From IMG/VR virus record IMGVR_UViG_3300036885_000101, positions 1 to 57,822 of that record: a stretch of DNA of 57,822 nt; one strand, given 5' to 3'. This document shows positions 1 to 57,822 of the stretch, piece after piece. The stretch comes from a virus. The notes beneath the pieces were generated by a model, which was not told the DNA's origin, did no database searches, and worked only from the letters and a program-made list of their open reading frames with translations. Position 1 is the first letter of the stretch; each line of letters begins with the position of its first letter. Made by a program: the position numbers and the translations under genes.

Positions 1-114
1 GATTACGATACGAAAGTGCTTGAAGCCGATTCGAAGAAGCAGGGCTACAAAACGAAGGTAAAAAAGCCTTCCGAAAAAAAGGAGAATGGCAATGCCGCAA
101 AAAATCCTTCATAA
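1..114 (+). CDS. Small lysine-rich protein, 3' part (5' end at window end)
   Basis: This is the second copy of the gene whose complete form is at 57687-57809. Only its last 37 codons are present here because the sequence is cut inside it. The product is Lys-rich and has no recognisable domain. Its end overlaps the start of the protease gene by 23 bases, which suggests translational coupling. Confidence 0.6.
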   Translation, partial: DYDTKVLEADSKKQGYKTKVKKPSEKKENGNAAKNPS

Positions 115-127
115 GCTCATGGGAAGC
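1..127. repeat. Direct terminal repeat, left copy (127 bp)
   Basis: Bases 1-127 are identical to 57696-57822. A small gene and the start of the head protease gene run across the junction intact, so the ends join without disrupting coding. An exact 127-base overlap equals a common maximal assembly k-mer, so it most likely marks a circular assembly (unit length 57,695 bp) rather than a true phage terminal repeat. Confidence 0.95.
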
Positions 128-5369: not shown

Positions 5370-6053
5370 ATGGAAAAGAAGAAGATAGTAAGTTTTTCGC
5401 TTTGGGGAAGCAACGAAGGATACTGTCAAGGCGCAATAGAAAACGCCGAACTTGCGCCGAAGATATATCCCGGCTGGACTTGCCGCTTTTATGTTGATCC
5501 GATTGTTCCACGTGAAACAGTCACACGCCTTTTCGATCTTGGTGCTGAGATAGTTTACAGAGAAGAGTCAATCGACAATCTCGGACTATACTGGCGCTTC
5601 GGTCCAATGTTCGATGACAAAATGGTTGACCGCTTCATCGTACGCGATACCGATTCCCGGTTGAACGTCAGGGAAGCGCAAGCAGTGAAAGAGTGGGAAG
5701 ACTCCGGTATGCTCTTCCATATCATCCGCGATAATAACGAGCACAATATCAAAATCCTTGGCGGCACCTGGGGATCAAAAGCAGGGATCATTCCACATTT
5801 TAAGATGCTCATGGATTCGTGGATTTCAGGAATTCAGCCTGATAGCAGAAACCCACGCGGGATATACCACGGCACGGATCAGATTTTCCTTTCGACAATT
5901 ATCTGGCCGTTCATTGAAAATTGCCATATCGCACATGATAATTATTTCAAGTTCACTGGCAGAGAAAAGCCGTTGACTGTGAAGTTGAAGCGCGATGGAT
6001 ACGTGGGCATGGTGTTCGCGGAAAAAGACCGCGATAGAACATTACCACTTTAA
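5370..6053 (+). CDS. Glycosyltransferase-like protein (GT-A type)
   Basis: Predicted glycosyltransferase, 227 aa. It opens with a beta strand and sugar-nucleotide-type loop (VSFSLWGSNEGYCQGAIENA), followed by YPGWTCRFYVD. The acidic metal-binding DXD-like motif is FIVRDTDSR near residue 90. Later, YHGTDQIFL matches the acidic catalytic region of such enzymes. No membrane segment is present, so it should act in the cytoplasm, on a virion or host glycan precursor. It is the first gene of a ten-gene glycan island. The sugar and acceptor cannot be read from sequence. Confidence 0.7.
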   Translation: MEKKKIVSFSLWGSNEGYCQGAIENAELAPKIYPGWTCRFYVDPIVPRETVTRLFDLGAEIVYREESIDNLGLYWRFGPMFDDKMVDRFIVRDTDSRLNVREAQAVKEWEDSGMLFHIIRDNNEHNIKILGGTWGSKAGIIPHFKMLMDSWISGIQPDSRNPRGIYHGTDQIFLSTIIWPFIENCHIAHDNYFKFTGREKPLTVKLKRDGYVGMVFAEKDRDRTLPL

Positions 6054-6068
6054 ATAGAAGGATTTATT

Positions 6069-6362
6069 ATGCCTCTTAACATTTCAAAAATGGGATACTA
6101 CAACGATTTGGCTAAATTCATGTTACCGATAGGGTCAAGAAAATCAATAGCTGTAGATATAAGCAGTACTGATTTTCCCTTGACCACTCCGTGCAGGTAT
6201 CTGACGGCGGCAACGGGGACCGTAATATATGTTGACATAACGTCAGAGGAAGGTCTTGACGCGAATGTCCCTATCACGGTTGGAGTGCCTTGTATAAACA
6301 TTACCAAAATATACAAGGCCGGAACAGATTGTACGGGTATTCGTGCGTGGCCGGTTGATTAA
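6069..6362 (+). CDS. Small beta-rich protein, possible spike-base or decoration protein
   Basis: Unrecognised 97-aa protein. It has the pattern LTTPCRYLTAATGTVIYVDI followed by PITVGVPCINITKIYKAGTD. This layout (a threshold residue, then a beta strand after a TPCR-like segment, then TKIYKAGTDCTGI) is reminiscent of small phage spike-base/decoration proteins, including those of gene transfer agents. It sits between glycosyltransferase genes and could be the glycosylated virion protein. Homology is suggested by pattern only. Confidence 0.4.
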   Translation: MPLNISKMGYYNDLAKFMLPIGSRKSIAVDISSTDFPLTTPCRYLTAATGTVIYVDITSEEGLDANVPITVGVPCINITKIYKAGTDCTGIRAWPVD

Positions 6363-6382
6363 CGAACAATAAAGAGGGCAAG

Positions 6383-7120
6383 ATGTACGATAAAATATGG
6401 TTGATGGTCCCGACGTACAAGCGGGTCGAATGGATAAAACGATTCATTGATTCGGCTATCGAAATGGCGGAAAAACCGGAACAGATTGCCTTTTGCTTTT
6501 GCGTGAACCATAAGGATAAAGTTACTCAGGAATTTGTTGATGATTTTTGCAGTAATAAATGGAGAGATTCTTTTTTTATTATCGAAAAATCAATTCAGCC
6601 GAATCTTTCCTTGTATTTCAACATGATGTATGATTCGGTTACCGAAGAGCAGGGCGATTGCATTGTCTCCATGCTTGGCGATGACATGGTTTTTGAAACC
6701 AAAGGATACGATACTCGCATTCTTGACGAAATCAACAAGTCTGACGGAATCGGCGTTTTCTGGTGCGATGATGGATATATCGCGCATGAAAAATGCAGCG
6801 TCAATCTTTTCGTGACAAAGAAATTTGTCGATATTACCGGGAAACCGTTTATGTGTCCATATTATAAAGCGGATATGATAGATGCGGTTTGGTGGTTGAT
6901 CGGACAACAGACACAAACGGCTCACTATCTCAGCGATGTAACAATCAAGCACCTTCACAATACGTCTTTGAAAGATGGGTACGATCCAACTTTCCAACGC
7001 CTTGTACCTTTGCAGAAGTCGGCAAATGCGCCGGACAAGCAGAGGATAGGATATGTTTACGCGACGGCGGTATCAGGCAACATCATTTCAAGCGGGTACG
7101 GAAAATGGAATCAGATATAA
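6383..7120 (+). CDS. Glycosyltransferase family 2-like protein
   Basis: Predicted GT-A glycosyltransferase, 245 aa. The start IWLMVPTYKRVEWIKRFIDSA is the nucleotide-sugar-binding opening of family 2 enzymes. The DXD-type motif is SMLGDDMVF near residue 100. Acceptor-side residues follow (MCPYYKADMIDAVWW, HLHNTS). It is soluble. AGAGGG sits before the ATG. Its end overlaps the next gene by 16 bases, so the pair is translationally coupled. Confidence 0.75.
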   Translation: MYDKIWLMVPTYKRVEWIKRFIDSAIEMAEKPEQIAFCFCVNHKDKVTQEFVDDFCSNKWRDSFFIIEKSIQPNLSLYFNMMYDSVTEEQGDCIVSMLGDDMVFETKGYDTRILDEINKSDGIGVFWCDDGYIAHEKCSVNLFVTKKFVDITGKPFMCPYYKADMIDAVWWLIGQQTQTAHYLSDVTIKHLHNTSLKDGYDPTFQRLVPLQKSANAPDKQRIGYVYATAVSGNIISSGYGKWNQI

Positions 7121-7677
7121 TTCTTACAATTCTTATTTGCACAATACAAGCGCGAGAAAAGAAGCTCCGTCGATTGCTTGATATTCTAATACCTCAGATT
7201 GATTCGTCCGTTAGCCTTGTCATGAATGCCGATGACAACATGACCGTAGGGGAAAAAAGAAACAGGCTTGTAGGTGGAGCTGCGGGAAAATACGTTTGCT
7301 TTGTCGATGACGATGATTTGGTCAGTAATGATTATGTCAAGAAAATAACCGATGCGATTAAAAGCGGGTATCCTGATTGCGTCGGAATCCAAGGAATAAT
7401 GCTTACAAATTCAAATTGCCCGCGCCGGTTCTTTCATACGATTGAGGTCAATAACTGGTATACGAACGGTTCAGAATATTACCGGACACCAAATCACCTT
7501 AACCCGATAAAAAAAGAAATCGTGCAAAAAGTACAATTCAATTCGTTCAAAAGCTTCTGGGAGGATTTGGAATTCTCTTCATCGATAAAGCACCTATTGA
7601 AAACAGAGGTAATGATTGATGACCCCGTTTATTATTACCTTTACAATATGAAACCGAATGAGGTTATGTTCGCATGA
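7105..7677 (+). CDS. Glycosyltransferase family 2-like protein
   Basis: A 190-aa GT-A enzyme. The opening is ILTILICTIQAREKKLRRLLDIL, then GEKRNRLVGGAAGKYVCFVDDDDLVS, where DDDD is the metal-binding DXD motif near residue 69. WEDLEFSSSIKH near residue 152 fits the catalytic acidic region. I start it at the ATG at 7105, inside the end of the previous gene, because the family opening begins there; a longer reading in the same frame has no family-like sequence. It overlaps the next gene by 4 bases. Confidence 0.75.
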   Translation: MESDIILTILICTIQAREKKLRRLLDILIPQIDSSVSLVMNADDNMTVGEKRNRLVGGAAGKYVCFVDDDDLVSNDYVKKITDAIKSGYPDCVGIQGIMLTNSNCPRRFFHTIEVNNWYTNGSEYYRTPNHLNPIKKEIVQKVQFNSFKSFWEDLEFSSSIKHLLKTEVMIDDPVYYYLYNMKPNEVMFA

Positions 7678-8765
7678 GATTTTTTAGCATCGATCAACAT
7701 ATTTCGGTAATCGCCGACTTGAAAAACATCTTTGGCAAGCTCGGTCATACCATTGACGATGTCTGCCTCAGTGGTCATGCCGCAATTATGGGGCGCAAGA
7801 TTGATAGTATACCAATTCTTGACGGGAACAATTGGTGTGGATTCGTGCAGCAGAGGAAATGGGATGAATTCTTTCAGGCGTATCCTGACTTGGATGAAAA
7901 ATACGACGGGTTCATTTGCTGCTATCCACCTATATTTTCATACCTTTACAAAAGATTCAAAAAGCCTATCATCATAGATATTCCTATCAGGTACGAATAT
8001 CCTTGTCAGTCGAGCGCCGAAGATTGGAATAATTTCAACCAGTATTTGCAGGAAGGCGTTGACTCAAAACGGATTTACCTTGTTGCTAATTCTATCTACG
8101 AAAAAGAATATACTAAACTATTTCTTGATCGTGAAGTGCGATACATTCCGAGCCTTTGCTTGTATACCGGGATGAAATATGATCCTAAAAGGAATGAGTT
8201 TCTATACCGTGCTGCAAAGCCTTTTTCTGAATTGAACAATACCAATTTCAAATTGAAAAATCAGGTATTGGCTTTCGGTCATCCCTGGCAGGCCGTCGCG
8301 GAATATTCCGGCGTTGTTCACTTCCCGTACAATGTTTCAACCATGTCAACATTCGAAGAATATTCTGCAAATATTCCTCTGTTTGTTCCGTCCCTTGATT
8401 TCACAATGAAACTTTATTCAAAGGGCCTTGCATATCGCATGCTTGAACAAATTTCGTGGGCAGGAACATTTGGCCGCGAGTCCGGTTCGGTTATACCGGT
8501 GAAGCCTGGAATGCCGGACCCGAATGATTTCAAGAACGTGGAAGCCGTTCGATATTGGATGCAGTTTTCAGACTATTACAACGAAACAGCAATGCCGCAT
8601 ATCGTTCATTTTGATTCATTCGATGATTTGCATGATAAGGCTATGCATCTTGATCTTGATGCAATAAGCGATAAAATGAAAGCAACGAATTTCATACGGC
8701 AAGAAAAGACAATTGAATCATGGAGAACCCTACTCGAAACGGTAAAAAATGATCACAGGTTGTAA
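7674..8765 (+). CDS. Probable GT-B type glycosyltransferase
   Basis: The 363-aa protein has a two-lobed layout expected of GT-B enzymes. The N-terminal half contains KLGHTIDDVCLSGH and KYDGFICCYPPIF, and PIIIDIPIRYEYP near the interlobe region. The C-terminal half has VVHFPYNVSTMSTFEEYSANIPLFVPS, which matches the donor-binding lobe where an E-rich loop selects the nucleotide sugar. No signal or membrane segment is seen. Position in the island supports the call; exact family is unknown. Confidence 0.6.
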   Translation: MRFFSIDQHISVIADLKNIFGKLGHTIDDVCLSGHAAIMGRKIDSIPILDGNNWCGFVQQRKWDEFFQAYPDLDEKYDGFICCYPPIFSYLYKRFKKPIIIDIPIRYEYPCQSSAEDWNNFNQYLQEGVDSKRIYLVANSIYEKEYTKLFLDREVRYIPSLCLYTGMKYDPKRNEFLYRAAKPFSELNNTNFKLKNQVLAFGHPWQAVAEYSGVVHFPYNVSTMSTFEEYSANIPLFVPSLDFTMKLYSKGLAYRMLEQISWAGTFGRESGSVIPVKPGMPDPNDFKNVEAVRYWMQFSDYYNETAMPHIVHFDSFDDLHDKAMHLDLDAISDKMKATNFIRQEKTIESWRTLLETVKNDHRL

Positions 8766-29846: not shown

Positions 29847-31976
29847 ATGAAAAAATTAATTATTATTTTACTTTGTTTTGGCTTGTCATTTGCAACAAAC
29901 TTAACGAAACACATACGATATGGTGGAGATTATCGAAGCGTACAAGGGTGCTTGGCGGCAAATACCGGAATGACGCAGGATACTCTTAATATTTCTGTGG
30001 ATAGCTGTTTTGTTGATACCGCCATAAATACAAACAGTTATTCAAAAGTAATTAATATTTTTGCCTCATCCGGGAACTATTCAACGACAGGGGCATGGGA
30101 CCCGACAAAGTATTATATCAACGAAGTGGGAGCTGGCGCTACTCCGGCCATTAATATTAAAAGCACTCATGTTAATCTTTATAATTTACAGATAGAAGCA
30201 ACCTCTCCTTCAGCAACAGGAGAGGATTGCATACAATTCACATTCGGTTCCGCAGGCGGGGTCCATCGATTTCATAATCTCATTATAAAGGGACACAACA
30301 ACGGAACATATTCACAATCTGGCATTAACTTCAAAACCACTGCCGAAAATTTATACATGTGGAATTGCATACTTTACAATTTCGGGACAGTTTCTTCCAC
30401 GTACCCGATTTCCGGTAACTCATATGCCGATAGTGTATGGATGTATAATTGCGATTTGATTGGCGGTGTTTTTGGAGTATATACCGGCGGTGCCACTGGA
30501 GCTCAATGGATAGTAAAAAACTGTTATTGTGGCGGCGGCTCATCAGATCGTTATTACGCATCAACCTATTTAACAAAAACAACTTGCGCGTCATCGGACG
30601 GAACAGGCTCTACAGGGTTGATCAATATTGCGTATTCAACCGCGAATTTTACCAATGTTACCGGTGGAAGCGAAAATTTTGCATTGACAAGCGGAAGTGC
30701 CTTGCGAGGGACGGGAACTTATACCGGCGGTGATCTTGCCCCAATGAATTTTACTACAGATATAACGGGGTACGCTTATACAAATCCACCGTCGATAGGC
30801 CCATTTGAATACCCGGCCTCGTATTGCGTCACTACAGTTTCAGCAACGGCGGGAGGCTCGATAACCACTCCGGCGACGGGCAAGGATTCAAGCGTTTGCG
30901 GTGGAGCGGTTTCTATCGTCGCGGCAGCGAACACGGGCTATAGTTTCAACGGGTGGACAGCGACGGGGTCCGTAACTTTTGTCAATGCGGCGTTGACCAC
31001 GACCACGTTTACGAGCAGCGCCACGGGCGGGGCGATCACGGCCAATTTCATCGCCGCGCCCGGCCCGATCAGCTATACTGGCGGCAACATCTCAGCAACC
31101 TACGGCCTCGGCGTTGCGGTGGACTCTGTATGGCATACGATGACTATGAGTAACGCAGGAGGGGCTTTGGATAGCGTCCGCAGTCATCCGGCGCTCTCTA
31201 CATGGGGATTGACCCTCGGCGCGGACGGATCGATCTCCGGCACACCCACGACGTATACGCCGGGAGATTCCGCGTTGACGGATACCATAATCGGATACAA
31301 CGCGATAGGCTCCCAAAAATGCACGACATACGTTACAATCCAGATTTTGCACCAGGGCGGCGTGTGGACCTACGATCGCCTCACCGTGGACACGATGAGC
31401 CTGTATACCATGCAAGTCTACGCGGGCACGGGTGGAATCGTTTCCCCGTCCAGCGTGACGGACAGCCTGAGCCACCCGTTTAGCGCCATGGCAATCCCGG
31501 CAGCGTATCACGTCGTCGGATCGCCTGTATGGTCCCTACGTGCGGGCGGTACTGTGACCGTCAACGCGGCGGCAGGGAGTTTTCGTCTGTTCGGCCCAGA
31601 CACGGCGGATGCGGCGTTTTCGTGGGCCACGCCGGTCGCGCCCACGCTCTACACGCCCAACCAGAACGACAGCAACCAAGCGACGAATCTCAATCTTGTA
31701 TGGAGGTCGAACACAGCCGATAGTGTGTATTATCTCTGGTACGACACGACGCTTTCCTTCAACAGTCCGTTTCTTGTCAAGGACACGCTCGCGGACACAT
31801 CAAAAAACGTGATTCTCGGCCTGACAAACTCGTGGTACCACTGGAAGGTTGCCGCTGGAAACAACGGCGGGACAACAAGCTCCTTTTCGTCGCCCAGGAC
31901 GTTTAAGACCATGAGCGCGTACAGGAGGCGGCATGGCGGGATGAATATAGGGATCGGCATCGGAATCGGCTTTTAA
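29847..31976 (+). CDS. Secreted beta-helix protein with InlB-type and Ig-like domains
   Basis: A 709-aa exported protein: signal KKLIIILLCFGLSFA, cleavage before TNLTK. Residues ~20-300 are beta-helix-like (HVNLYNLQIEA, HRFHNLIIKG, LYMWNCILYNFG, VWMYNCDLIGG). Residues ~325-400 form a divergent InlB-type repeat (ATAGGSITTPATGKDSSV, NTGYSFNGWTATGSV). Residues ~405-500 match an Ig-like putative domain with LSTWGLTLGADGSISGTPT. A fibronectin-like unit and a Gly/Arg-rich tail (GMNIGIGIGIGF) end it. These modules are typical of surface proteins of Fibrobacterota-like hosts. Confidence 0.7.
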   Translation: MKKLIIILLCFGLSFATNLTKHIRYGGDYRSVQGCLAANTGMTQDTLNISVDSCFVDTAINTNSYSKVINIFASSGNYSTTGAWDPTKYYINEVGAGATPAINIKSTHVNLYNLQIEATSPSATGEDCIQFTFGSAGGVHRFHNLIIKGHNNGTYSQSGINFKTTAENLYMWNCILYNFGTVSSTYPISGNSYADSVWMYNCDLIGGVFGVYTGGATGAQWIVKNCYCGGGSSDRYYASTYLTKTTCASSDGTGSTGLINIAYSTANFTNVTGGSENFALTSGSALRGTGTYTGGDLAPMNFTTDITGYAYTNPPSIGPFEYPASYCVTTVSATAGGSITTPATGKDSSVCGGAVSIVAAANTGYSFNGWTATGSVTFVNAALTTTTFTSSATGGAITANFIAAPGPISYTGGNISATYGLGVAVDSVWHTMTMSNAGGALDSVRSHPALSTWGLTLGADGSISGTPTTYTPGDSALTDTIIGYNAIGSQKCTTYVTIQILHQGGVWTYDRLTVDTMSLYTMQVYAGTGGIVSPSSVTDSLSHPFSAMAIPAAYHVVGSPVWSLRAGGTVTVNAAAGSFRLFGPDTADAAFSWATPVAPTLYTPNQNDSNQATNLNLVWRSNTADSVYYLWYDTTLSFNSPFLVKDTLADTSKNVILGLTNSWYHWKVAAGNNGGTTSSFSSPRTFKTMSAYRRRHGGMNIGIGIGIGF

Positions 31977-34898: not shown

Positions 34899-35081
34899 AT
34901 GAAACTTCACGAATCTGCTTTGACAGAAAAACAGATTGCAGCTCTTAAGAAAATGTATGATACTGGTAAGTTTTCTCACAGAGATTTAGCGAGAATGGTT
35001 AATGTGGATAAAAGTCAAATAAGCAGGTATTTTCAAAAGATGAAACCGATTACCACGGAGGATCAATCATGGAAACAGTAA
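34899..35081 (+). CDS. Small helix-turn-helix protein
   Basis: A 60-aa DNA-binding protein. LTEKQIAALKKMYDTGKFSHRDLARMVNVDKSQISRY contains a helix-turn-helix like those of Hin or AraC-type binding units. It could repress or activate early genes. It overlaps the ERF gene by 13 bases. Confidence 0.65.
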   Translation: MKLHESALTEKQIAALKKMYDTGKFSHRDLARMVNVDKSQISRYFQKMKPITTEDQSWKQ

Positions 35082-35986
35082 CAAAAGTAACAAACGGGAT
35101 ACAGGAAGCCGCAAAGGAGCCGATAGAAGCCGTAGTATCAAAAAAGGTGTTCCCGGTAAAGAAGAAATCCCTGCTTGCAGAAGCAATGGTAAAATGCCAG
35201 AGCCTTATCAATCCGGCAGGAAAGAGCGGGGAGAACAAGTTTGACCACTACAAGTATTCTACTCTTGAGGATTACTGCAATCAGCTTAAGCCGGCGCTAA
35301 CCGCTTCAGAGCTTGCGGTGTACTTCAATCAGGACGAGATTACAGACAAAGGTATCCGGGAAACATCGACAGGCAAGAAGGAATACGTAATCAGGGTGAA
35401 GCTTACCGCGACGATCATGCATAGTTCCGGGGAATGTATGGATGTGGTAGGATACGGGGAAGGCCAGGATCGAGGTGACAAGGCTATCTACAAAGCGATT
35501 ACAGGGTGCAAGAAGTACCTGCTTGCTAATGCGTTCAACATCCCGACGACTGACGACCCGGAAGTAGACTCACATGATGCTGAAGAAAAGTTACCGCCGA
35601 AAGGCCAGAGATTCAAGGACGAACAGGCGGTAGTGTCCAGAGCGTTGGTAGATCAAGAGAAAAAGGCCGCAGAATCTCCTCAGAAGGCCCAGGACGCAGG
35701 CAAACCAGTACCGGGAAGCCAACTGCCAGCCAAGAAGAAAGAACCCTCTGACGAGGACCAGGCAAAGGACGGACTGATCATAACGGCCCAGGTGAAAGCA
35801 TTGCAGAAAAAGCGTACTCAGTTCAAAATACCGGATGCTAAATGGAAAGCATGGCTATTTGCGAAATACGCTATCCTGACAGCGTGGAAGATAAAGCAGG
35901 AATGGTTTGCAGCGATAGATGGAACTGTGACACTTAACCCAGCAGAGATAATCGAATTTGTTACAGCAGATGATGTGGCGCAGTAG
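35069..35986 (+). CDS. ERF-family single-strand annealing protein
   Basis: A 305-aa recombinase of the ERF type. Core: LLAEAMVKCQSLINPAGK, then HYKYSTLEDYCNQLKPAL (the conserved YxY-like start of the family), VRVKLTATIMHSSGE, and GDKAIYKAITGCKKYLLANAFNIP. The C-terminal third is charged linker plus a helical domain. It anneals complementary ssDNA in phage recombination. GGAGG lies before ATG 35069. Confidence 0.88.
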   Translation: METVTKVTNGIQEAAKEPIEAVVSKKVFPVKKKSLLAEAMVKCQSLINPAGKSGENKFDHYKYSTLEDYCNQLKPALTASELAVYFNQDEITDKGIRETSTGKKEYVIRVKLTATIMHSSGECMDVVGYGEGQDRGDKAIYKAITGCKKYLLANAFNIPTTDDPEVDSHDAEEKLPPKGQRFKDEQAVVSRALVDQEKKAAESPQKAQDAGKPVPGSQLPAKKKEPSDEDQAKDGLIITAQVKALQKKRTQFKIPDAKWKAWLFAKYAILTAWKIKQEWFAAIDGTVTLNPAEIIEFVTADDVAQ

Positions 35987-36046: not shown

Positions 36047-36152
36047 AATCATAATGATAACAATTGCAGACGACATATTGTAAAACCCGTCTGATGGATA
36101 TTACCTGTTGGCTGCAATGCCCGGTGAACCATGTAAAATAGGAGGTCGTCAA

Positions 36153-36500
36153 ATGATTAATGATAGGGTTTTAAAGTCAAGTGACATTATGCTGCTTGGT
36201 GATATTCTCGTTACAATAAACGGTTCTCAAATTCCTGTTATCGGGTATTCCGGCCAAGTTGTTTCTGATGCTGTCAACGATCATACAAACTTTATCGAAT
36301 GCCGCCGACCTCAAAAAGTAGAGGAGTCACCGGGCACAGTTCCGCCAGTAGGCGCAGCCAACAGCCAAAGTGTGACGGCGCTGAGTGAAATAGTTTGGGA
36401 TTGGCTCACTGAAAATGCTGTCGATGTTATGGTTGACAAGTGTGACGTTAATATGCTAATTCAGCGCCTAAATGCCGGAATATCGGCACTTCACACTTAG
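36153..36500 (+). CDS. Cassette 1 protein, unknown
   Basis: A 115-aa protein starting at ATG 36153, with AGGAGG just before. N-terminal half is beta-rich (LLGDILVTINGSQIPVIGYSG). It contains EESPGTVPPVGAAN, a module shared with other cassette proteins and encoded by the outer arm of the attC-like site. The C-terminal half is helical (LSEIVWDWLTENAVDVMVD) and is encoded within that site's central part. No function recognised. Confidence 0.6.
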   Translation: MINDRVLKSSDIMLLGDILVTINGSQIPVIGYSGQVVSDAVNDHTNFIECRRPQKVEESPGTVPPVGAANSQSVTALSEIVWDWLTENAVDVMVDKCDVNMLIQRLNAGISALHT

Positions 36501-36513
36501 GCGAACGTTGGTT
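36356..36513 (+). repeat. attC-like site 1
   Basis: R'' AGCCAAC (36356-36362), L'' AAGTGTGA (36368-36375), L' TCACACTT (36491-36498), R' GTTGGTT (36507-36513). L''/L' pair 8/8. A further stem GGCGCT (36377-36382) with AGCGCC (36463-36468) lies inside. The central part encodes the C-terminus of the cassette 1 protein. Confidence 0.6.
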
Positions 36514-36553
36514 GCAATAGCGGCCAAGGACTTTACAAATAGGAGCGCGGCTT

Positions 36554-36823
36554 ATGAATATAATTTGCGATAAGTGTAAATATGTTTCTGGTTTTTCATC
36601 TGAATTTCCGTGCAATAGATGCGTTGTAATTGCCATTAATTGTTTTGTTCCAAGCAATGCCGCGCTCAATTCTGAGGAGTTGGCCGCTACAGTTCCGGCA
36701 GTAGCCGCAGCCAACAAACAAAGTGACAAAATTAAACCTTGTGGCTGGCAATATTCTTGTGGATACGTTCGGGTCAATAAGGTGTGCAAGGGTCCGACGT
36801 GTAATATATACGATCCGGTTTAA
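36554..36823 (+). CDS. Cassette 2 protein, cysteine-rich
   Basis: An 89-aa protein with two Cys groups: CDKCKYVSG and PCNRC in the first 30 residues, then KPCGWQYSCGY and KVCKGPTC near the end, likely a zinc ribbon. The module EELAATVPAVAAAN separates the halves. ATAGGAG precedes the ATG. Function unknown. Confidence 0.6.
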   Translation: MNIICDKCKYVSGFSSEFPCNRCVVIAINCFVPSNAALNSEELAATVPAVAAANKQSDKIKPCGWQYSCGYVRVNKVCKGPTCNIYDPV

Positions 36824-36849
36824 CTTCGCACGTTTGTCAAACGTTGGCT
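36709..36849 (+). repeat. attC-like site 2
   Basis: R'' AGCCAAC (36709-36715), L'' TGACAAA (36724-36730), L' TTTGTCA (36833-36839), R' GTTGGCT (36843-36849). Both arms pair perfectly. ACGTTTG and CAAACGT around 36837 form an extra short palindrome next to R'. Confidence 0.58.
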
Positions 36850-36887
36850 GCAATGCCCGGTGAACCATTTAAACAGGAGGCGCGGGA

Positions 36888-37286
36888 ATGAGAAAGATAC
36901 ATTTGCAAATGGATGGGAATCAGATAGTGGCGACGTGGGACGATTTTGATTGTCTTGCTGTTTCTCCGGCAGGCTTTGGCGACAATATCGGCGAAGCCGT
37001 AAGCGCGTTGATAAACGAAACGGCTTCATATGCACTTAACGGCATCGTATCAAGCATTGAGAACGCAGCACACCTCACAAATAGTAGCCGTATTACAGAG
37101 GCAAGAGGTGAAGACCGCGCCTCTAAATCAGAGGAGTCACCGGGCACAGTTCCCGGAGTACCGGCAGCCAACACGGCCAGCCCGCAATTGCTGGCATTGG
37201 TTGCCCTTATGAAAGTATCGGCTACAGTATCAACGACAGCGGTTTTAAAAGTGATCTACGATGAGTTCCCGCAACTGCGGGCGTAG
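36888..37286 (+). CDS. Cassette 3 protein, HicB-like N-terminus
   Basis: A 132-aa protein. The N-terminal 50 residues (QMDGNQIVATWDDFDCLAVSPAGFGDNIGEAVSAL) resemble the HicB-like fold found in small phage and antitoxin proteins, with the S-P-A-G-F-G turn. RASKSEESPGTVPGVPAANTAS follows in two shared modules, then a helical C-terminus. AGGAGG precedes the ATG. The antitoxin role is not supported because no HicA-like partner is adjacent. Confidence 0.6.
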   Translation: MRKIHLQMDGNQIVATWDDFDCLAVSPAGFGDNIGEAVSALINETASYALNGIVSSIENAAHLTNSSRITEARGEDRASKSEESPGTVPGVPAANTASPQLLALVALMKVSATVSTTAVLKVIYDEFPQLRA

Positions 37287-37302
37287 GCGAAACGCGTTGT
37301 GC
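37166..37302 (+). repeat. attC-like site 3
   Basis: R'' AGCCAAC (37166-37172), L'' CCCGCAATTGC (37181-37191), L' GCAACTGCGGG (37271-37281), R' GTTGTGC (37296-37302). The L arms pair 10/11. R'' and R' match only 4/7 because R' belongs to the next cassette, as in real arrays. Confidence 0.58.
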
Positions 37303-37339
37303 GAAATGCCCGTTTACTTTTTAATTATAGGAGGTGCTT

Positions 37340-37552
37340 GTGCAGTTAGCAATCGACATTCTTAGATCGGAGCTTGAGTCTTACAAGCAGTGTTTGCGCA
37401 CCGAAGGTAAGTATAGCGTGTATCCGGAGTATCGTGGCCCGAACGTGGATTTTGCCCGTAACATAGCTGAGTTGCAGGACGCAATAGCGCACCTCTTAAA
37501 AGCTGTGGAAGTAAACGGTCACATCGCACAACAAATAAATGGTGTTCGCTAA
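37340..37552 (+). CDS. Cassette 4 protein, unknown
   Basis: A 70-aa helical protein (LAIDILRSELESYKQCLRTEG, AELQDAIAHLLKAVEVNG). Start is GTG 37340, 5 bases after AGGAGG. Its last codons fall in the right-hand attC-like core. No domain recognised. Confidence 0.6.
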   Translation: MQLAIDILRSELESYKQCLRTEGKYSVYPEYRGPNVDFARNIAELQDAIAHLLKAVEVNGHIAQQINGVR

Positions 37553-37597
37553 CGCACATGCGGAGTACCGCACGTCACTATTTATCGAACGATGGGC
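37526..37597 (+). repeat. attC-like site 4
   Basis: R'' GCACAAC (37526-37532), then GTTCG/CGAAC arms (37544-37548 and 37586-37590) around a GCGG-AGTA-CCGC hairpin, and R' GATGGGC (37591-37597), a degenerate core. At 72 bases it has typical attC size. Confidence 0.5.
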
Positions 37598-37908
37598 GCG
37601 CTGGAATAAGAGATAAGAGAAGACACCCAGGTTTACCTAACAAGGTATTCAATTTTGACTCGCATGCTCTCGCGAGTAGGTTGCTTTATGAAACATTCAC
37701 TTTTTCAGGAATACAGTGTTCGGAATGGCGTAAAACGTCGTCTTTGCGTACCCATAGTGATCGAAGACTCCCACGCGAACTTCGAGGGTCGACGGTGTGT
37801 GAGCTTTAGGGATTGCGCCATTCCCTTTCTTAGCGAGTCGCAAGCTGGCGGGCCTATTGCTCGCAAATTAATACCGACGTTAGGCCGCTTAAAAACAAAG
37901 GAGAAATT
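37553..37908 (+). other. Gene-poor stretch holding attC-like sites 4 and 5
   Basis: No convincing gene lies here. Reading frames exist (for example 37688-37912) but lack ribosome sites and overlap the next gene's start signals. The stretch is mostly recombination-site sequence, including a CTCGCGAG palindrome at 37669-37676. Confidence 0.6.
37635..37885 (+). repeat. attC-like site 5
   Basis: R'' ACCTAAC (37635-37641), L'' GGTATTCAATTT (37644-37655), L' AAATTAATACC (37865-37875), R' GTTAGGC (37879-37885). L'' and L' pair fully except for one extra C in L'', the same unpaired base position as in real attC sites. The centre (209 bases) is unusually long. Confidence 0.6.
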
Positions 37909-38187
37909 ATGAAAGTCGTAGCATTGGAGATTAAAAAGCGCGAAAGTTACGATAGTGAATATCCGAATGAAATTGTTGGCGTTGTGCAAATAACCGGCGA
38001 AACGGGTAAAATGGAGGTTCGTCTTCGCCCTAAAACCGTTGCCGAAATTTTCAGAATGTGCAAATCCGATGTTCAAATGGTTGCCAATTACAACGCCAAC
38101 CAAGCGGCTTTGGCTTGTGAAAATGTCGCCGGTACTATCGAACTTCAGGTCGAAAACAACGATCTAAAACAAATCGCGGCGGCCTAA
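37909..38187 (+). CDS. Cassette 6 protein, unknown
   Basis: A 92-aa protein (VVALEIKKRESYDSEYPNE, then VGVVQITGETGKMEVRLRP). AAAGGAG lies before the ATG. Its stop codon sits inside the right-hand core GCCTAAC, as is common in integron cassettes. No function recognised. Confidence 0.65.
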   Translation: MKVVALEIKKRESYDSEYPNEIVGVVQITGETGKMEVRLRPKTVAEIFRMCKSDVQMVANYNANQAALACENVAGTIELQVENNDLKQIAAA

Positions 38188-38458
38188 CAACCGCTTCAAT
38201 TCTGACTCGTGGGCGGATACAGGCTACAAAAAATTATAGGAGGCGCTAAATGTTTGAAGAGTTTTGTCGTGTGTGTAAAAACAAACATAAATTTATAATT
38301 TGCGGTAATTGTAAAACAAAAATGGCCCCTCCGCCATATTATGAATTTAGCGCCTCAATTGAGGACGGCAAACCATCCGCAGCGGGACAAGATCCTTTAC
38401 CCGTTAGCGGCGCGAAAACTGAATAGCTTATCACTCGCAAATTAAGCGGACGTTAGGG
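38182..38458 (+). repeat. attC-like site 6 (contains a small ORF)
   Basis: R'' GCCTAAC (38182-38188), L'' CCGCTTCAATT (38191-38201), L' AATTAAGCGG (38440-38449), R' GTTAGGG (38452-38458). L'' pairs with L' apart from one extra C. The centre holds the 58-codon ORF at 38250, so either the site is very long or a cassette was inserted into it. Confidence 0.6.
38250..38426 (+). CDS. Small zinc-ribbon protein inside attC-like site 6
   Basis: A 58-aa protein with FCRVCKNKHKFIICGNCKTK, a Cys4 zinc ribbon in the first 30 residues, and a polar tail. AGGAGG precedes ATG 38250 at good spacing, like other cassette genes, so it is likely a true gene. Confidence 0.6.
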   Translation: MFEEFCRVCKNKHKFIICGNCKTKMAPPPYYEFSASIEDGKPSAAGQDPLPVSGAKTE

Positions 38459-38486
38459 TGCGGCAAAGACTAAATAGGAGCGCGGC

Positions 38487-38753
38487 ATGATAAACGCAGA
38501 ACAAGGCATAGAGCGGTTTGAAGCACATTTTATTAATTGTGATGGAATAAACTCCATAAACGCGGATCTTATGAAAGAGGCAATTGACGCAATAAGAGCC
38601 GCGCTCCAAGAGAATAATAATACCGCTGTAGCTTTGCTCGATGAGATTGAAAACGCCCTCGGCGATTGCAAGGACAACTTAGACTTTTCTTGCCGAGTCA
38701 CGGAAATTTTACAACGGAGGCACGATGAAAAACAAAATCAAAAAATTGATTGA
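38487..38753 (+). CDS. Cassette 7 protein A, unknown
   Basis: An 88-aa helical, acidic protein (ADLMKEAIDAIRAALQENNN, then TAVALLDEIENALGD). The NNTAVALLDE stretch is shared in frame with the cassette 10 protein. AGGAGCG precedes the ATG. Overlaps the next gene by 29 bases. Confidence 0.6.
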   Translation: MINAEQGIERFEAHFINCDGINSINADLMKEAIDAIRAALQENNNTAVALLDEIENALGDCKDNLDFSCRVTEILQRRHDEKQNQKID

Positions 38754-39192
38754 ATCATTTTTAGACAACGAAATGGAAACAGACGAATTAGTTGATAACA
38801 TAGATGCAATTTGTCGCGCCTCCAACACAGAAATGAATATAAATAATTATTTGGCGGCACGTCGGTTGACAATAGAATCAAGCCTTGCCGCCGAAATACT
38901 CGCCGGAAATACGGTCAAGCAGCAATGCGAACAGACGGCGTTAGCAGAGATTTCGGCGATGGAACAAACATTTTTTAAGAGCGCCGCCAGCGAGCGGGAA
39001 ATTTCCCTTTCCGGGTGTGCATCGAGTGGTGCGTGCGGTTATACCGGATATCCAAGAATGTGCTATTCTACTAGTCCATGCGAGCATAAGATTGCGCTGA
39101 AAGCCGCAATCAACAATGGCATCAATCTTGACTCGCCACGTTTGCCAATCGGTAGCGGCGAAAATAAGAGTCTTTTGGGTACGCAGCATTAA
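38725..39192 (+). CDS. Cassette 7 protein B, unknown
   Basis: A 155-aa protein with acidic helices at the start (KKLIESFLDNEMETDELVDN), the RASNTE module, a Cys-rich middle (GCASSGACGYTGYPRMCYSTSPCE) and a tail NNGINLDSPRLP encoded by the attC-like site 7 arm. ACGGAGG lies before the ATG. No function recognised. Confidence 0.55.
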   Translation: MKNKIKKLIESFLDNEMETDELVDNIDAICRASNTEMNINNYLAARRLTIESSLAAEILAGNTVKQQCEQTALAEISAMEQTFFKSAASEREISLSGCASSGACGYTGYPRMCYSTSPCEHKIALKAAINNGINLDSPRLPIGSGENKSLLGTQH

Positions 39193-39248
39193 GTCGGTTA
39201 CTGTCTATCAATGCGGTTGTAGGCTCGCAAATTATGCCTACGTTAGCG
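39108..39248 (+). repeat. attC-like site 7
   Basis: R'' AATCAAC (39108-39114, degenerate), L'' GGCATCAAT (39118-39126), L' ATTATGCC (39231-39238), R' GTTAGCG (39242-39248). L'' pairs with L' apart from one extra C. Total 141 bases, at the top of the usual attC range. Confidence 0.6.
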
Positions 39249-39323
39249 CATTTTTGGCTGCGGGAAATAAAACAAGATCGGGCGGCATAGGCCCGGCGTC
39301 ATGCCGGGCGAGGAGAATATAAA

Positions 39324-39629
39324 ATGAAACTTATTTGCACATTGTCTAAACCCGCATACGTTCAAAAAACAATGAAAGAATTATGCGAAAGAAAAGATAT
39401 TTCTTTGGTTCAAATTTTGGATAATTCTGAAGTAAAAGCGGAGTCACCGGGCACAGTTCCCGGAGTACCGGCAGCCAACACGGCCAGCCTAAAATTGCCG
39501 AGCACAGAAGATGTTTGGAATTATGTATATAATCATCATGAATTTTGCGAAGATTTTGCAAGAGAAAACGAAGCTCGTGATATATCAAAACTTGTTTACG
39601 AATTTATATATCGGCAACTTCAGGCGTAG
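39324..39629 (+). CDS. Cassette 8 protein, unknown
   Basis: A 101-aa protein. N-terminal part CTLSKPAYVQKTMKELCERKDIS is helical, AESPGTVPGVPAANTAS is the shared module (nearly the same DNA as in cassette 3), and the C-terminus is helical and acidic. GGAG precedes the ATG. Upstream leader forms a GC-rich hairpin (GGCCCGGCGTCATGCCGGGC). Unknown function. Confidence 0.6.
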   Translation: MKLICTLSKPAYVQKTMKELCERKDISLVQILDNSEVKAESPGTVPGVPAANTASLKLPSTEDVWNYVYNHHEFCEDFARENEARDISKLVYEFIYRQLQA

Positions 39630-39643
39630 CCGGAACATTGCAC
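39473..39643 (+). repeat. attC-like site 8
   Basis: R'' AGCCAAC (39473-39479), L'' TTGCCG (39495-39500), L' CGGCAA (39612-39617), R' ATTGCAC (39637-39643, G replaced by A). The arms extend with further pairs (CT/AG). It contains the 3' part of the cassette 8 gene. Confidence 0.5.
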
Positions 39644-39689
39644 GCAATAGGCCGCGAACCATATTGTAAACGCGCCAAGGAGAAAACAA

Positions 39690-39986
39690 ATGACAGTTTT
39701 TAAAGCCATAAAAAGCATTTGCTCTATGCGAATAAATGATGTGTCGGGCAATCGTTTACGGGTAAAGTATCGTTGGGTATGTGCAAAGAAAAAGTGTTCT
39801 TGTTTGTGTGCTGAATCAAATTGCGAAATAGTAAAAAGAATTGGCGCGTTAAAAAATGCGGAGTCGCTGCCTACAGTTCGCCCGAAGCGGGCCGCGCAAC
39901 AACGCAAGGAAGCAATATTACGCTTTTGTGGAAACTGTCAACGCAATGATGATAGGTCAAGCGAAAAGGTAAATTATCATAGATAA
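39690..39986 (+). CDS. Cassette 9 protein, cysteine-rich
   Basis: A 98-aa basic protein with several Cys (SICSMRIND, WVCAKKKCSCLCAESNCE), likely metal-binding. The module AESLPTVRPKRAAQQ is a divergent form of the shared segment. AAGGAG precedes the ATG. The stop lies in sequence AGATAAC, close to an attC-type core. Function unknown. Confidence 0.55.
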   Translation: MTVFKAIKSICSMRINDVSGNRLRVKYRWVCAKKKCSCLCAESNCEIVKRIGALKNAESLPTVRPKRAAQQRKEAILRFCGNCQRNDDRSSEKVNYHR

Positions 39987-40047
39987 CTTAATATTAGCGT
40001 GGCCGCATATGCGGTCGTATCACTCGCTGCTTAAGCGGGCGTTAGGC
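39894..40047 (+). repeat. attC-like site 9
   Basis: Likely R'' GCGCAAC (39894-39900) and R' GTTAGGC (40041-40047); the L' side reads CTTAAGCGGGC before R'. A CCGCATATGCGG palindrome (40003-40014) lies inside. An alternative 5' core is AGATAAC at 39981-39987. The left arm is uncertain. Confidence 0.5.
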
Positions 40048-40075
40048 CGCAGCGGGGAACTAAATAGGAGGCGTG

Positions 40076-40456
40076 ATGAAACTTGATGTAAACAAAATAC
40101 TGGCGTTGCGGGCGATTTATAGTAGAGAAACAGGATGCCCAACATCGTGCCCTGACGGGAAGTTATTTACAATTCAATACACAACATGGCTCGAAGCTCG
40201 CGCCTCCAATACAGAACAGAATAATTCCGCTGTAGCTTTGCTTGCTGATGTTTATAGGCACATAGAAACGGGTGAGATTAAAATGGGTTGTTTGCGCGGT
40301 TTGAAACATGACATTGCAGTCTGGGCGCAATCCCCGCTGCCGCCTAACAATGGCATCAATCTTGACTCGCCACGTTTGCCAACAGTAAATCCGTCAAGTG
40401 AAATTGACGTGGGTGGAGTTGGTATTGGCCCTCGCGGTTGTGGCGACATAGACTAA
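40076..40456 (+). CDS. Cassette 10 protein, unknown
   Basis: A 126-aa protein with RASNTEQNNSAVALLADV, combining two shared modules, and a tail NNGINLDSPRLP shared with cassette 7 protein B. ATAGGAGG precedes the ATG; a GTG one codon earlier is less likely. The last third is encoded inside attC-like site 10. Confidence 0.55.
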   Translation: MKLDVNKILALRAIYSRETGCPTSCPDGKLFTIQYTTWLEARASNTEQNNSAVALLADVYRHIETGEIKMGCLRGLKHDIAVWAQSPLPPNNGINLDSPRLPTVNPSSEIDVGGVGIGPRGCGDID

Positions 40457-40470
40457 TAATGCGGTTGCGC
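40342..40470 (+). repeat. attC-like site 10
   Basis: R'' GCCTAAC (40342-40348), L'' GGCATCAAT (40352-40360), L' near ATAATGC (40456-40462), R' GTTGCGC (40464-40470). The sequence around L'' is nearly the same as in site 7 (AACAATGGCATCAATCTTGA). The R'' arm is a 17/18 match to the start of its own cassette. Confidence 0.58.
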
Positions 40471-45016: not shown

Positions 45017-47037
45017 AAATAACGACAAGAATATCAGATGATAGTTGGACGCTTGCGGTTGGATCATGGTTGAAACCGGGTTCCCGCATGTATGTCGCTA
45101 TTTCTGATTTCAGCGAAAAAGATATGGTTAAGCAGGCGGGCTTTCGGTGGAACCCTGAAAAGAAGGTCTGGTGGACTAATGACGCCAGCAAAGCTTCTAA
45201 ACTCAGCGAGTGGGCTGACATTTCTTGTCAGGCAGAACTGGACGCGATCCGCAAGGAAAATTTTAAGGCGGTGGTTGAGAGTAAAGCTGTTACTACGAAT
45301 ATGGTAATACCTCATCCTGAAGGACTGAATTATTATGATTTTCAAAAAGCTGGAATTTTCTACGCGATGCAACGGAAAAACACGTTAATAGCAGACGCCA
45401 TGGGATTAGGCAAGACCGTAGAGGCTATCGGGGTTAGCAATTGCGATGATAACATTAAAAAAGTTTTAGTAATTTGTCCGGCCACGTTAAAGCAAAATTG
45501 GTATCGAGAGTGGAAACGTTGGGACATGAAGAAAATGAATGTAGGCATAGGAGATTCTAAAATATGTCCTATGCCGAACGATGGCTTTAACGTCTGTATA
45601 ATAAATTTCGATGTTTTGACCAAGCACAAAAAAATAAAGGCCGAAAATTGGGATTTACTGATAGTTGATGAATGTCAAAAATGTAAAAATGCGAAAACGA
45701 TTCGAGGAAAGTTTATTTACGGTGCACCTTACGACCAGAAAACAGGAACAGCAGCGATTGACCCGATAAAAGCAAAACGAATTTTATTTCTTACCGGAAC
45801 ACCGATAGTGAATAGACCGAGCGAACTTTGGCCTATAATTTCTTTTCTTGATCCTGACACCTGGAAGAATAAGTGGCGATATTTTATGAGCAGGTACTGC
45901 AATTTAAATCAAACGCGGTGGGGATGTGATATCAAAGGAGCGAACCCGGACAGATTACCGGAATTGCAGGAAGTGCTTCGCCAAAAGATTATGGTGAGGC
46001 GCCTAAAAGAAGAAGTTTTGCTTGATTTGCCGACAATGACCAGACAGATAATTGAGGTTGAACCAACACCGGAGATGGAACAGTATATTATTGCAGAGAA
46101 CGAGGCTATGGATAGCAAGGAAGACACCTACAACGACCTTAAGGCCAAGGTCGAACTTGCCAAAGCAGGAAGCGAGGATTCTTATAGGAACGCCGTCAAA
46201 GAGCTTCAGAAGGCCATGAGCGTATCTTTTGAGGAAATGGCGAGACTTCGGCATGAAACGGCATTGGCAAAAGTACCAGCAGTGATTGCGGACGCTCAGG
46301 AAGCGCTTGAAGCTATAGATAAGGTTGTAATTTTTGCGCACCACAAAGATTGCATTGCCAAGATTGCAGCGGCGTTCCCAGGTCAAGCAGTGGTTTTGAC
46401 CGGTGACACAACGATGGCGAACCGGCAGGCCGCGATAGACGCTTTTCAGATTGATCCTGTTATTAAAGTTTTTGTTGGATCAATCACAGCGGCGGGGGTA
46501 GGAATAACCCTGACAGCAGCGTCTACAGTGATCTTTGCTGAATTGTCATGGGTTCCAGGAGATATCAGTCAAGCAGAATCACGCCTTCACCGGATCGGCC
46601 AGAAAGACGCGGTGAATGTTCGACACATCGTATTAAACGGTAGTCTTGACTCCAAACTTGCCAAAACCCTTGTAGAGAAGCAGGAGATTATCGAGCTTGC
46701 ACTGGACAAGGAAATTGAGCAGATCCCGATAACACCGGGACCGCAGGCAGCGACAACGCGAACCAGCCGGCAGAAGATCGAGCAGGAAGCCATGACGATA
46801 GGAGCAGAGCAGATCGAGGCGATACACGAAGGGCTGAGGACGCTTTCCGCGATGTGTGACGGGGCACGGTCCCTGGACGGCAGCGGATTCAGTATGATAG
46901 ATACACACATCGGGAAGTCTCTTGCGGCAGCGTACAGTCTAAGCGCGAAACAGGCTGCACTTGGCCGGAAGATACTTATTAAATATAAACGTCAACTCGG
47001 TGAAGAACTGTATATAAAGATCAAAGAGGCAGCATGA
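45013..47037 (+). CDS. SNF2-type DNA helicase/translocase (SMARCAL1-like)
   Basis: A 674-aa helicase. The first ~75 residues (KQAGFRWNPEKKVWWTNDA) match a small substrate-binding domain common before SNF2 modules. Motif I IADAMGLGKTVEAIGVS near residue 129; motif II LLIVDECQKCKN near residue 218; motif III LFLTGTPIVN; motif V IKVFVGSITAAGVGITLTAA; motif VI SQAESRLHRIGQKD. C-terminus helical. It likely remodels replication forks or recombination intermediates. It starts in a 4-base overlap. Confidence 0.92.
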   Translation: MKITTRISDDSWTLAVGSWLKPGSRMYVAISDFSEKDMVKQAGFRWNPEKKVWWTNDASKASKLSEWADISCQAELDAIRKENFKAVVESKAVTTNMVIPHPEGLNYYDFQKAGIFYAMQRKNTLIADAMGLGKTVEAIGVSNCDDNIKKVLVICPATLKQNWYREWKRWDMKKMNVGIGDSKICPMPNDGFNVCIINFDVLTKHKKIKAENWDLLIVDECQKCKNAKTIRGKFIYGAPYDQKTGTAAIDPIKAKRILFLTGTPIVNRPSELWPIISFLDPDTWKNKWRYFMSRYCNLNQTRWGCDIKGANPDRLPELQEVLRQKIMVRRLKEEVLLDLPTMTRQIIEVEPTPEMEQYIIAENEAMDSKEDTYNDLKAKVELAKAGSEDSYRNAVKELQKAMSVSFEEMARLRHETALAKVPAVIADAQEALEAIDKVVIFAHHKDCIAKIAAAFPGQAVVLTGDTTMANRQAAIDAFQIDPVIKVFVGSITAAGVGITLTAASTVIFAELSWVPGDISQAESRLHRIGQKDAVNVRHIVLNGSLDSKLAKTLVEKQEIIELALDKEIEQIPITPGPQAATTRTSRQKIEQEAMTIGAEQIEAIHEGLRTLSAMCDGARSLDGSGFSMIDTHIGKSLAAAYSLSAKQAALGRKILIKYKRQLGEELYIKIKEAA

Positions 47038-57686: not shown

Positions 57687-57809
57687 ATGAAAACCGATTA
57701 CGATACGAAAGTGCTTGAAGCCGATTCGAAGAAGCAGGGCTACAAAACGAAGGTAAAAAAGCCTTCCGAAAAAAAGGAGAATGGCAATGCCGCAAAAAAT
57801 CCTTCATAA
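57687..57809 (+). CDS. Small lysine-rich protein (complete copy)
   Basis: A 40-aa basic protein (YDTKVLEADSKKQGYKTKVKK). Complete only here; the copy at window start is cut at its 5' end. Its gene overlaps the protease start by 23 bases. No function recognised. Confidence 0.55.
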   Translation: MKTDYDTKVLEADSKKQGYKTKVKKPSEKKENGNAAKNPS

Positions 57810-57822
57810 GCTCATGGGAAGC
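57696..57822. repeat. Direct terminal repeat, right copy (127 bp)
   Basis: Identical to bases 1-127. The protease start at position 92 is repeated here at 57787. Confidence 0.95.

Follow-up and report, generated by a model that had tools for sequence, protein, structure and literature searches.

A probable cluster of integron-type cassettes without an integrase in a phage genome, and evidence for cassette exchange among related phages

How does a phage that has no integrase come to hold a row of integron-type cassettes, and are such cassettes exchanged between phages? The question is raised by IMG/VR record IMGVR_UViG_3300036885_000101, a terminally redundant phage genome analysed here over its whole stretch of 57,822 nucleotides (the window). 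In the replication region of this phage, at positions 36107-40470 of the plus strand, about ten such cassettes lie in one direction (Table 1); the small same-direction ORFs bounded by cores that a sequence-only reading had proposed are thus real features of the locus.

Results

Searches with PF00589 and PF00239 found no tyrosine or serine recombinase, and the lack of any PF00589 match in the window record means that there is no integron integrase near the array. The criteria for a complete integron (an intI gene plus an attI site) are not met: there is no intI, and the leading edge is merely attI-like. Rfam gave no RNA family for the array, and nothing similar to it was found among named phages and plasmids. 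Searches with Erf and DnaB yielded no useful relatives, and the closest terminase relatives (L022-L024) end before the array region. No relative of the window phage spans the array, and the evidence for exchange therefore comes from other phages only.

Table 1. Cassettes, recombination sites and foldback stems of the window array (window positions).
Feature	Position	Strand	Remarks
Whole cassette array	36107..40470	+	Two attC families; several cassettes fused or decayed
Cassette 1	36107..36506	+	ORF 36153-36500; own-end 7/7
Cassette 1 boxes	R' 36107-36115, R'' 36354-36362	+	
Cassette 1 foldback	Stem 2 36118-36127/36327-36336; stem 3 36142-36148/36306-36312		
attC of cassette 1	36354..36515	+	L''/L' -25.7 kcal/mol, rank 0; top attC-like duplex of the genome
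Cassette 2	36507..36842	+	ORF 36554-36823; recurs in phage G2
Cassette 2 foldback	Stem 2 36518-36527/36680-36689; stem 3 36543-36551/36659-36667		
attC of cassette 2	36707..36851	+	Arms pair; bottom-strand fold z -3.3
Cassette 3	36843..37295	+	ORF 36888-37286; own-end 7/7
Cassette 3 foldback	Stem 2 36854-36863/37137-37146; stem 3 36877-36885/37115-37123		
attC of cassette 3	37164..37304	+	Arms -25.7, rank 0; whole-site fold z -0.5, no better than shuffles
Cassette 4	37296..37590	+	ORF 37340-37552; own-end foldback 37296-37319/37509-37532
attC of cassette 4	37524..37599	+	R' core at 37591 reads GAT by mutation
Overlong attC-like site, type B	37635..37887	+	ORF in loop (probable fusion); direct sequence reading
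Cassette 6	37879..38451	+	ORF 37909-38187; own-end 10/10 (37879-37888/38179-38188)
Cassette 6 second ORF	38250-38426	+	Within long site
attC type B (CCTAACAACCGCTTcAATT...AATTAAGCGGACGTTAGG)	38180..38460	+	281 nt; one bulged base; ORF in loop
Fused cassette	38452..39241	+	ORFs 38487-38753, 38725-39192; own ends mismatch
attC with type B arms	39106..39250	+	Mismatched R boxes; fold z +0.4
Cassette 9	39242..39636	+	ORF 39324-39629; hybrid ends
attC of cassette 9	39471..39645	+	Arms -25.8, rank 0; R' core at 39637 reads ATT by mutation
Cassette 10	39637..40040	+	ORF 39690-39986
Cassette 10 foldback	Stem 2 39648-39657/39864-39873; stem 3 39669-39678/39841-39850		
Hybrid attC of cassette 10	39892..40049	+	R''/L'' side type A, L'/R' side type B
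Last cassette	40041..40470	+	ORF 40076-40456; own-end 17/18 (40041-40058/40331-40348)
attC of last cassette	R'' 40340-40348	+	L' and R' lost

The complementarity of each cassette's start to its own end, noted in the initial reading, was confirmed, with R matches of 7/7 in five cassettes (starting at 36107, 36843, 37296, 37879 and 40041) and long matches of 17/18 in the last cassette and 21/24 in cassette 4. The pairing of the inner arms, also noted there, was found in eight of the nine window sites. The own partner outscored the arms of all other sites in 6/9, and the mean L''/L' energy was -16.3 kcal/mol for own and -9.6 kcal/mol for mismatched arms. By these pairing tests, rather than by the published covariance model, the array meets the site-clustering criterion applied here for CALINs, at least two attC sites within 4 kb. 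An alignment of known attC sites made with MAFFT was too poor to serve as the basis of a covariance model and was dropped. When the entire record was scanned with a simple attC search, the top two matches fell within the array. A duplex-energy scan put 13 of its top 25 hits inside the array of a second phage, G2, versus 2.9 expected; it is merely supportive, because enrichment was weak in the window (3/20 in the array versus 1.5 expected) and absent for known Vibrio sites.

Two further points held only in part. In four window sites, bottom-strand DNA folding gave z-scores of -3.3, -0.5, -1.6 and +0.4; in six G2 sites the scores ranged from -0.6 to -4.2. The imperfect palindrome of attC (R''-L''-L'-R', with an unpaired spacer and bulges), and with it the proposed hairpin, is thus clear in most G2 sites and at 36707-36851; in the other three of the four window sites tested it is weak, the whole-site folds being no better than shuffles. 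The GTTRRRY consensus fits type B sites (GTTAGGC) and is not met overall, since most type A R' boxes read GTTGNNN with GTT alone constant, and two window cores are mutated (Table 1). Accepted Vibrio sites (GTTATGT) also depart from it.

Pattern searches revealed the same cassette type in seven more IMG/VR records, representing four further phage lineages; it is present in phages spanning 33-56% GC. Matches in GTDB genomes of Halanaerobium lie within a conserved gene and were set aside as chance. The G2 array has about 16 cassettes, one of which is window cassette 2 at 85% identity, with homology stopping at both GTT cores; a 294-bp indel between G1 and G2 was rejected as an array difference, being located outside the array. 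Four lineages share the leading edge TA^GTTG, followed by differing first cassettes. Several cassettes of the relatives are DNA methyltransferases; no named relative comes close to phage A, whose matches are limited to methyltransferase genes. Neither the leading-edge site, nor the occurrence in other lineages, nor the foldback described next had been part of the sequence-only reading.

In intact cassettes the ends pair past the R boxes with a fixed geometry, the leader folding onto a stretch upstream of the cassette's own R'' to form stem 2 at +11 and stem 3 near +35. In the window and G2 the mean z was -3.3, and the own tail was the best of 24 in 15 cassettes. The result held in an independent set of 34 cassettes, with -38.5 kcal/mol for own pairs against -25.4 kcal/mol for cross pairs, and in 21 of them the own partner ranked first among all 34; z <= -3 was reached by 17/24 cassettes versus 2/40 non-cassette genes. 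Integrons of Vibrio and Shewanella lack this foldback (z about 0).

The function of the foldback can only be inferred. Its likeliest role is to lengthen the R stem and thereby stabilise the cassette when excised or single-stranded; a limit on translation is also possible, since stem 3 often lies over the ribosome-binding site. One could go further and regard the foldback solely as an RNA device, by which the cassette mRNA hides its ribosome-binding site and is translated only while nascent, attC function being separate. Many cassettes do have stem 3 over the start codon or the ribosome-binding site, and pairing is kept despite sequence change. We nevertheless consider this unlikely, because stems 1 and 2 run continuously with the R box, and because several cassettes have the stem 3 arm, at an unchanged distance from GTT, ahead of a ribosome-binding site that is separate from it, which also weakens stem 3 as a pure ribosome-binding-site lock. 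The types of mismatch (11 G-U versus 6 A-C) are compatible with either strand being the one that matters.

Movement of cassettes was visible in three strains of one phage, A (G008), Dd (G011) and E (G012), which are metagenome assemblies from different samples and are 93-99.9% identical. Their arrays differ by whole cassettes, with all breaks at ^GTT, both at the leading edge and in the interior (three places). After TTTGAGGTA^GTT, the first cassettes of Dd and E differ; after GCGGTGAAC^GTT, E goes straight to the next shared cassette, while A has two extra cassettes and Dd five; before GTTGCACGCAATAGG, strain A has four additional cassettes. One cassette occupies differing positions (A 1035-1306 and Dd 30171-30442, 100% identical). 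At the breaks the strains have merely about 4-6 nt in common, less than homologous recombination would need. Judged from the assembled sequences, these differences are natural cassette shuffling. The expectation that relatives would break at GTT cores was borne out in these strains and by cassette 2 in G2, where natural breakpoints at the core are read from sequence alone; for the window's own lineage there is no strain pair.

Taken with the attC anatomy, the own-end R matches and the lack of an integrase, these whole-cassette differences support the original CALIN-like reading. We are fairly confident that the array is a cluster of attC-bearing integron-type cassettes without integrase (CALIN) in a phage without integrase, and we infer that its cassettes are mobilised by a recombinase in trans. 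It is improbable that the arrays are instead inherited fragments of bacterial chromosomal integrons, passive and decaying, with no exchange in the phage. The window array is indeed partly decayed: besides its two mutated cores, the overlong sites at 37635-37887 and 38180-38460 (about 250-280 nt) are probably fused or partly deleted cassettes, and the halves of the hybrid sites at 39106-39250 and 39892-40049 do not match each other; moreover, Vibrio phage p16 was published as a captured integron fragment (PMC9892861). Passive inheritance does not, however, account for near-identical strains differing by whole cassettes at three places, or for one cassette type in phages of such different GC content. 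Least credible is a mechanism in which repeated cassette ends recombine by homology or by single-strand annealing, for which an Erf-like annealing protein beside the array (35069-35986) and the near-identity of some leaders and tails over 30-60 nt might speak, since the breaks fall at the core with so little sequence in common and no protein, not even Erf, is common to all five array-bearing phages (the window phage W, G2, A, B and C).

Discussion

CALINs in phage genomes are already known (TJE1, PH101, P12002L and others; Qi et al. 2023, PMC9892861), and in the laboratory IntI1 acts on a number of the attC sites that they carry, attC2 of P12002L among them (PMC9892861). They resemble the window type in that virulent phages carry attC sites and cassettes but no integrase, and the present arrays in methyltransferase cargo; the published P12002L cassettes also have the +11 foldback. 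The present arrays are larger and differ in their strain shuffling, a cassette common to two phages and a shared leading edge. Sedentary chromosomal integrons (the Vibrio anguillarum fragment in phage p16, Shewanella M16-3) share one-direction cassettes, attC hairpins and the own-end R match, but carry intI, vary less in their attC sites, whose R' is GTTA, and show no own-end foldback past R. Class 1 cassettes (aadA/cmlA, phage P1 isolate L-II) share the GTT core and an own-end R match of up to 12/12, but have attC sites of about 60 nt and neither stem 2 nor stem 3.

In the literature we came upon no account of natural cassette exchange by phages and no previous mention of a second foldback. 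Strain-level shuffling thus appears new with respect to known phage CALINs, as do the foldback and attC-encoded protein tails; an HMM for helical tails gave scores not separable from shuffles.

Phages with such arrays appear to trade genes through an enzyme that they do not encode. An integrase supplied in trans by an integron of the host would fit, but neither host nor integrase has been identified. We infer that an IntI-type tyrosine recombinase, from the host or a co-infecting element, would act during infection, with the folded bottom strand as its substrate. The cassettes would be transcribed together with phage early genes and, as the methyltransferases of several relatives suggest, may provide host-takeover or anti-restriction functions. 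A broader view remains tentative, and we hold it with less conviction than its denial: that arrays of this kind are widespread residents of many virulent phages, with their own leading site, double-sided hairpin cassettes mobilised in trans and attC loops encoding in-frame C-terminal modules, and form a pool shared by phages rather than integron leftovers.

Near-identical strains that differ at the predicted joint are evidence for natural cassette exchange in phages, and they also locate it, at the leading edge and at internal sites. The supplier of the integrase, the role of the foldback, and the possible part of phages in carrying cassettes and storing anti-restriction methyltransferases all become testable. 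If the foldback is general, it bears on cassette formation, a long-standing question.

attC anatomy, and exchange of cassettes at the core in relatives

We show attC anatomy (boxes in the order R''-L''-L'-R') for a cassette array carried by this phage and, in relatives, exchange at the core. Because the 57822-bp record, the entire IMG/VR entry, has identical bases at its two ends, it is probably a complete genome, circular or terminally redundant, of ~57.7 kb. It encodes capsid, portal and terminase; directly ahead of the array lie genes for an exonuclease and for an Erf-like annealing protein, and beyond it those for a replication initiator and DnaB. No close named relative was found in the phage collection.

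An attC scan of the genome placed its top two matches within the array. The sequence-only reading had reported full complementarity between the R boxes of five cassettes and their own ends, which our measurements reproduced, and pairing of the inner arms. The latter also held, the own partner being the best against all other sites' partners in 6 of 9 window sites, with one clear failure, the truncated last site. Bottom-strand folding, proposed as a check, supported the two-arm hairpin only in part: of four window sites, one gave an R stem separated by a 3-base unpaired spacer from an L stem, which itself holds unpaired bases and is closed by a loop (z -3.3, better than every shuffle), and the other three folded no better than shuffles (z -0.5, -1.6 and +0.4). 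Sites in the array fall into two families. In type A, R' reads GTTGNNN and the ORF usually extends into the loop; type B is the classic CCTAAC...GTTAGG, where a single base is bulged. Two of the array's cores carry mutations, and hybrids or fusions account for three of its junctions; part of the array is therefore decayed.

Coordinates of features in the window and in records G1 and G2 (L-numbers, sequence pieces of G1/G2)
Record	Position	Feature	Observation
Window	1-127; 57696-57822	Identical ends	127 bases
Window	5370-8765	Four-protein block	Also in G2 and C; order differs in G2
Window	29847-31976	Protein with divergent InlB B-repeat domain (PF18998)	Possible tail or surface protein
Window	36070-36106	Inverted repeat (CAGACG...CGTCTG)	Just upstream of leading edge
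Window	36107; 36843; 37296; 37879; 40041	Own-end R match	7/7
Window	36709-36849; 36356-36513	Top two attC-scan matches	
Window	36500-36853	Cassette 2, matching stretch	85.5% identical to a G2 cassette, core to core; flanks differ
Window	36707-36851	Site folded on bottom strand	z -3.3
G1	L010:2936-3883	Protein with run of near-identical short repeats (SGxxSHAATSG)	In segment missing from G2's contig
G1	L010:5799-6092 (G1 45799-46092)	294-bp segment absent from G2	Outside array; flanked by two replication-region genes
G2	L003:3874-4332 (minus strand)	IS200-type Y1 transposase within one cassette, near palindrome (CCACGGGGTTTTAACCCCGGTGG)	Apparently inserted into the array
G2	L011:9285-14208	Several glycosyltransferase-like proteins and one radical-SAM-like protein in a row	From sequence only

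A pattern built from the type A tail retrieved G1 and G2, which are one phage (99.97% identity over 41 kb) with ~16 cassettes in the G2 array. A second pattern added five records: A, Dd and E, strains of a single phage, and B and C, distinct phages. The cassette type thus occurs in five lineages including the window (GC 33-56%). The window phage, G2 and C, which share the four-protein block, are otherwise distant.

The sequence-only reading had called for a comparison of relatives, with breaks expected at the core. The window's own lineage offered no strain with a differing array, but A, Dd and E gave the expected result. Their shared backbone is 93-99.9% (A/Dd) or 99.7% (Dd/E) identical, and their arrays keep a common order of shared cassettes, K-M-N-P, differing by whole cassettes. 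After GCGGTGAAC^GTT (^ marks the joint), E continues directly into M, whereas two extra cassettes intervene in A and five in Dd. A has four more between N and P, where the tetranucleotide preceding the core is not the same either (GAAC versus TTCC), and five before K. At the leading edge Dd and E share the backbone TTTGAGGTA^GTT exactly, but the first cassette after it is not the same in the two. One cassette, 100% identical over 272 bp, precedes K in A but sits between K and M in Dd. The joints share only ~4-6 nt. This pattern, as read from assemblies, is predicted by integron recombination and not by homologous recombination.

The sequence at the leading edge is TA^GTTG in G2, A, Dd/E, B and C, and CT^GTTG in the window; internal joints of the tabulated phages mostly have AC, CC or GC before GTT. 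We found no tyrosine or serine recombinase in the window. Consistent with the absence of an integrase noted earlier, PF00589 had no match in any array-bearing record, PF00239 had none in the seven records tested, and no protein is common to the window, G2, A, B and C. The simplest inference is therefore a recombinase supplied in trans, although a divergent one outside these two families is not excluded. It would be an IntI-type enzyme, acting in trans on the bottom strand of attC, both points being inferred.

Cassettes fold back on their own ends

In intact cassettes there is further pairing outside the R boxes, between the leader and the bases that precede the cassette's own R''. Stem 2 (8-11 bp) begins, for most cassettes, at +11 from GTT, its partner lying 11-14 or 26-27 nt before the R'' end; stem 3 (8-13 bp) starts near +33 to +39 and often coincides with the ribosome-binding site. 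In the window and G2, own pairing had a mean z of -3.3 and was the best among 24 tails in 15 cassettes; z ≤ -3 was reached by 17/24 cassettes versus 2/40 ordinary window genes. For 34 cassettes from phages outside the defining set (boundaries of relatives' cassettes were set by eye before testing), own pairing averaged -38.5 versus -25.4 kcal/mol for cross pairing, and was best of 34 in 21. Hits of a strict detector within arrays mostly had the fixed +11 geometry; other phage DNA gave 18 scattered hits in 1.8 Mb (both strands counted). Cassettes without foldback mostly have mismatched own R boxes, as expected for fusions; a few have matching ones (for example, window cassette 6, A7 and C7).

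Vibrio and Shewanella integrons gave no foldback signal (1/11 and 0/8), and in class 1 cassettes the R match spans 12 bp, with no further stems. Published phage P12002L has the same foldback in two adjacent cassettes (z -6.7 and -5.2); none was seen in TJE1 or in the examined parts of PH101 and MW202573. We found no earlier description in the open-access literature, most subscription journals being outside the search. We observe the pairing; its function is only inferred.

Cargo and relation to known systems

The window's cassette proteins had no Pfam match above family cut-off and no PHROG with E < 0.01. Relatives' cassettes encode N6/N4, C5, MT-A70 and Dam methyltransferases, cargo also carried by published phage CALINs (attC clusters without an integron integrase). 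In many cassettes the ORF continues through R'' into the attC loop, which thus encodes the C-terminal tail; 12/41 such tails hold at least four cysteines, and one is common to C and G2 (E 5.7e-7), where the N-terminal parts are unrelated. Since phage CALINs (PMC9892861) are the nearest known systems, we rate the window array as a variant of these, novel in the evidence and the structural feature; that the cargo benefits the phage is an inference.
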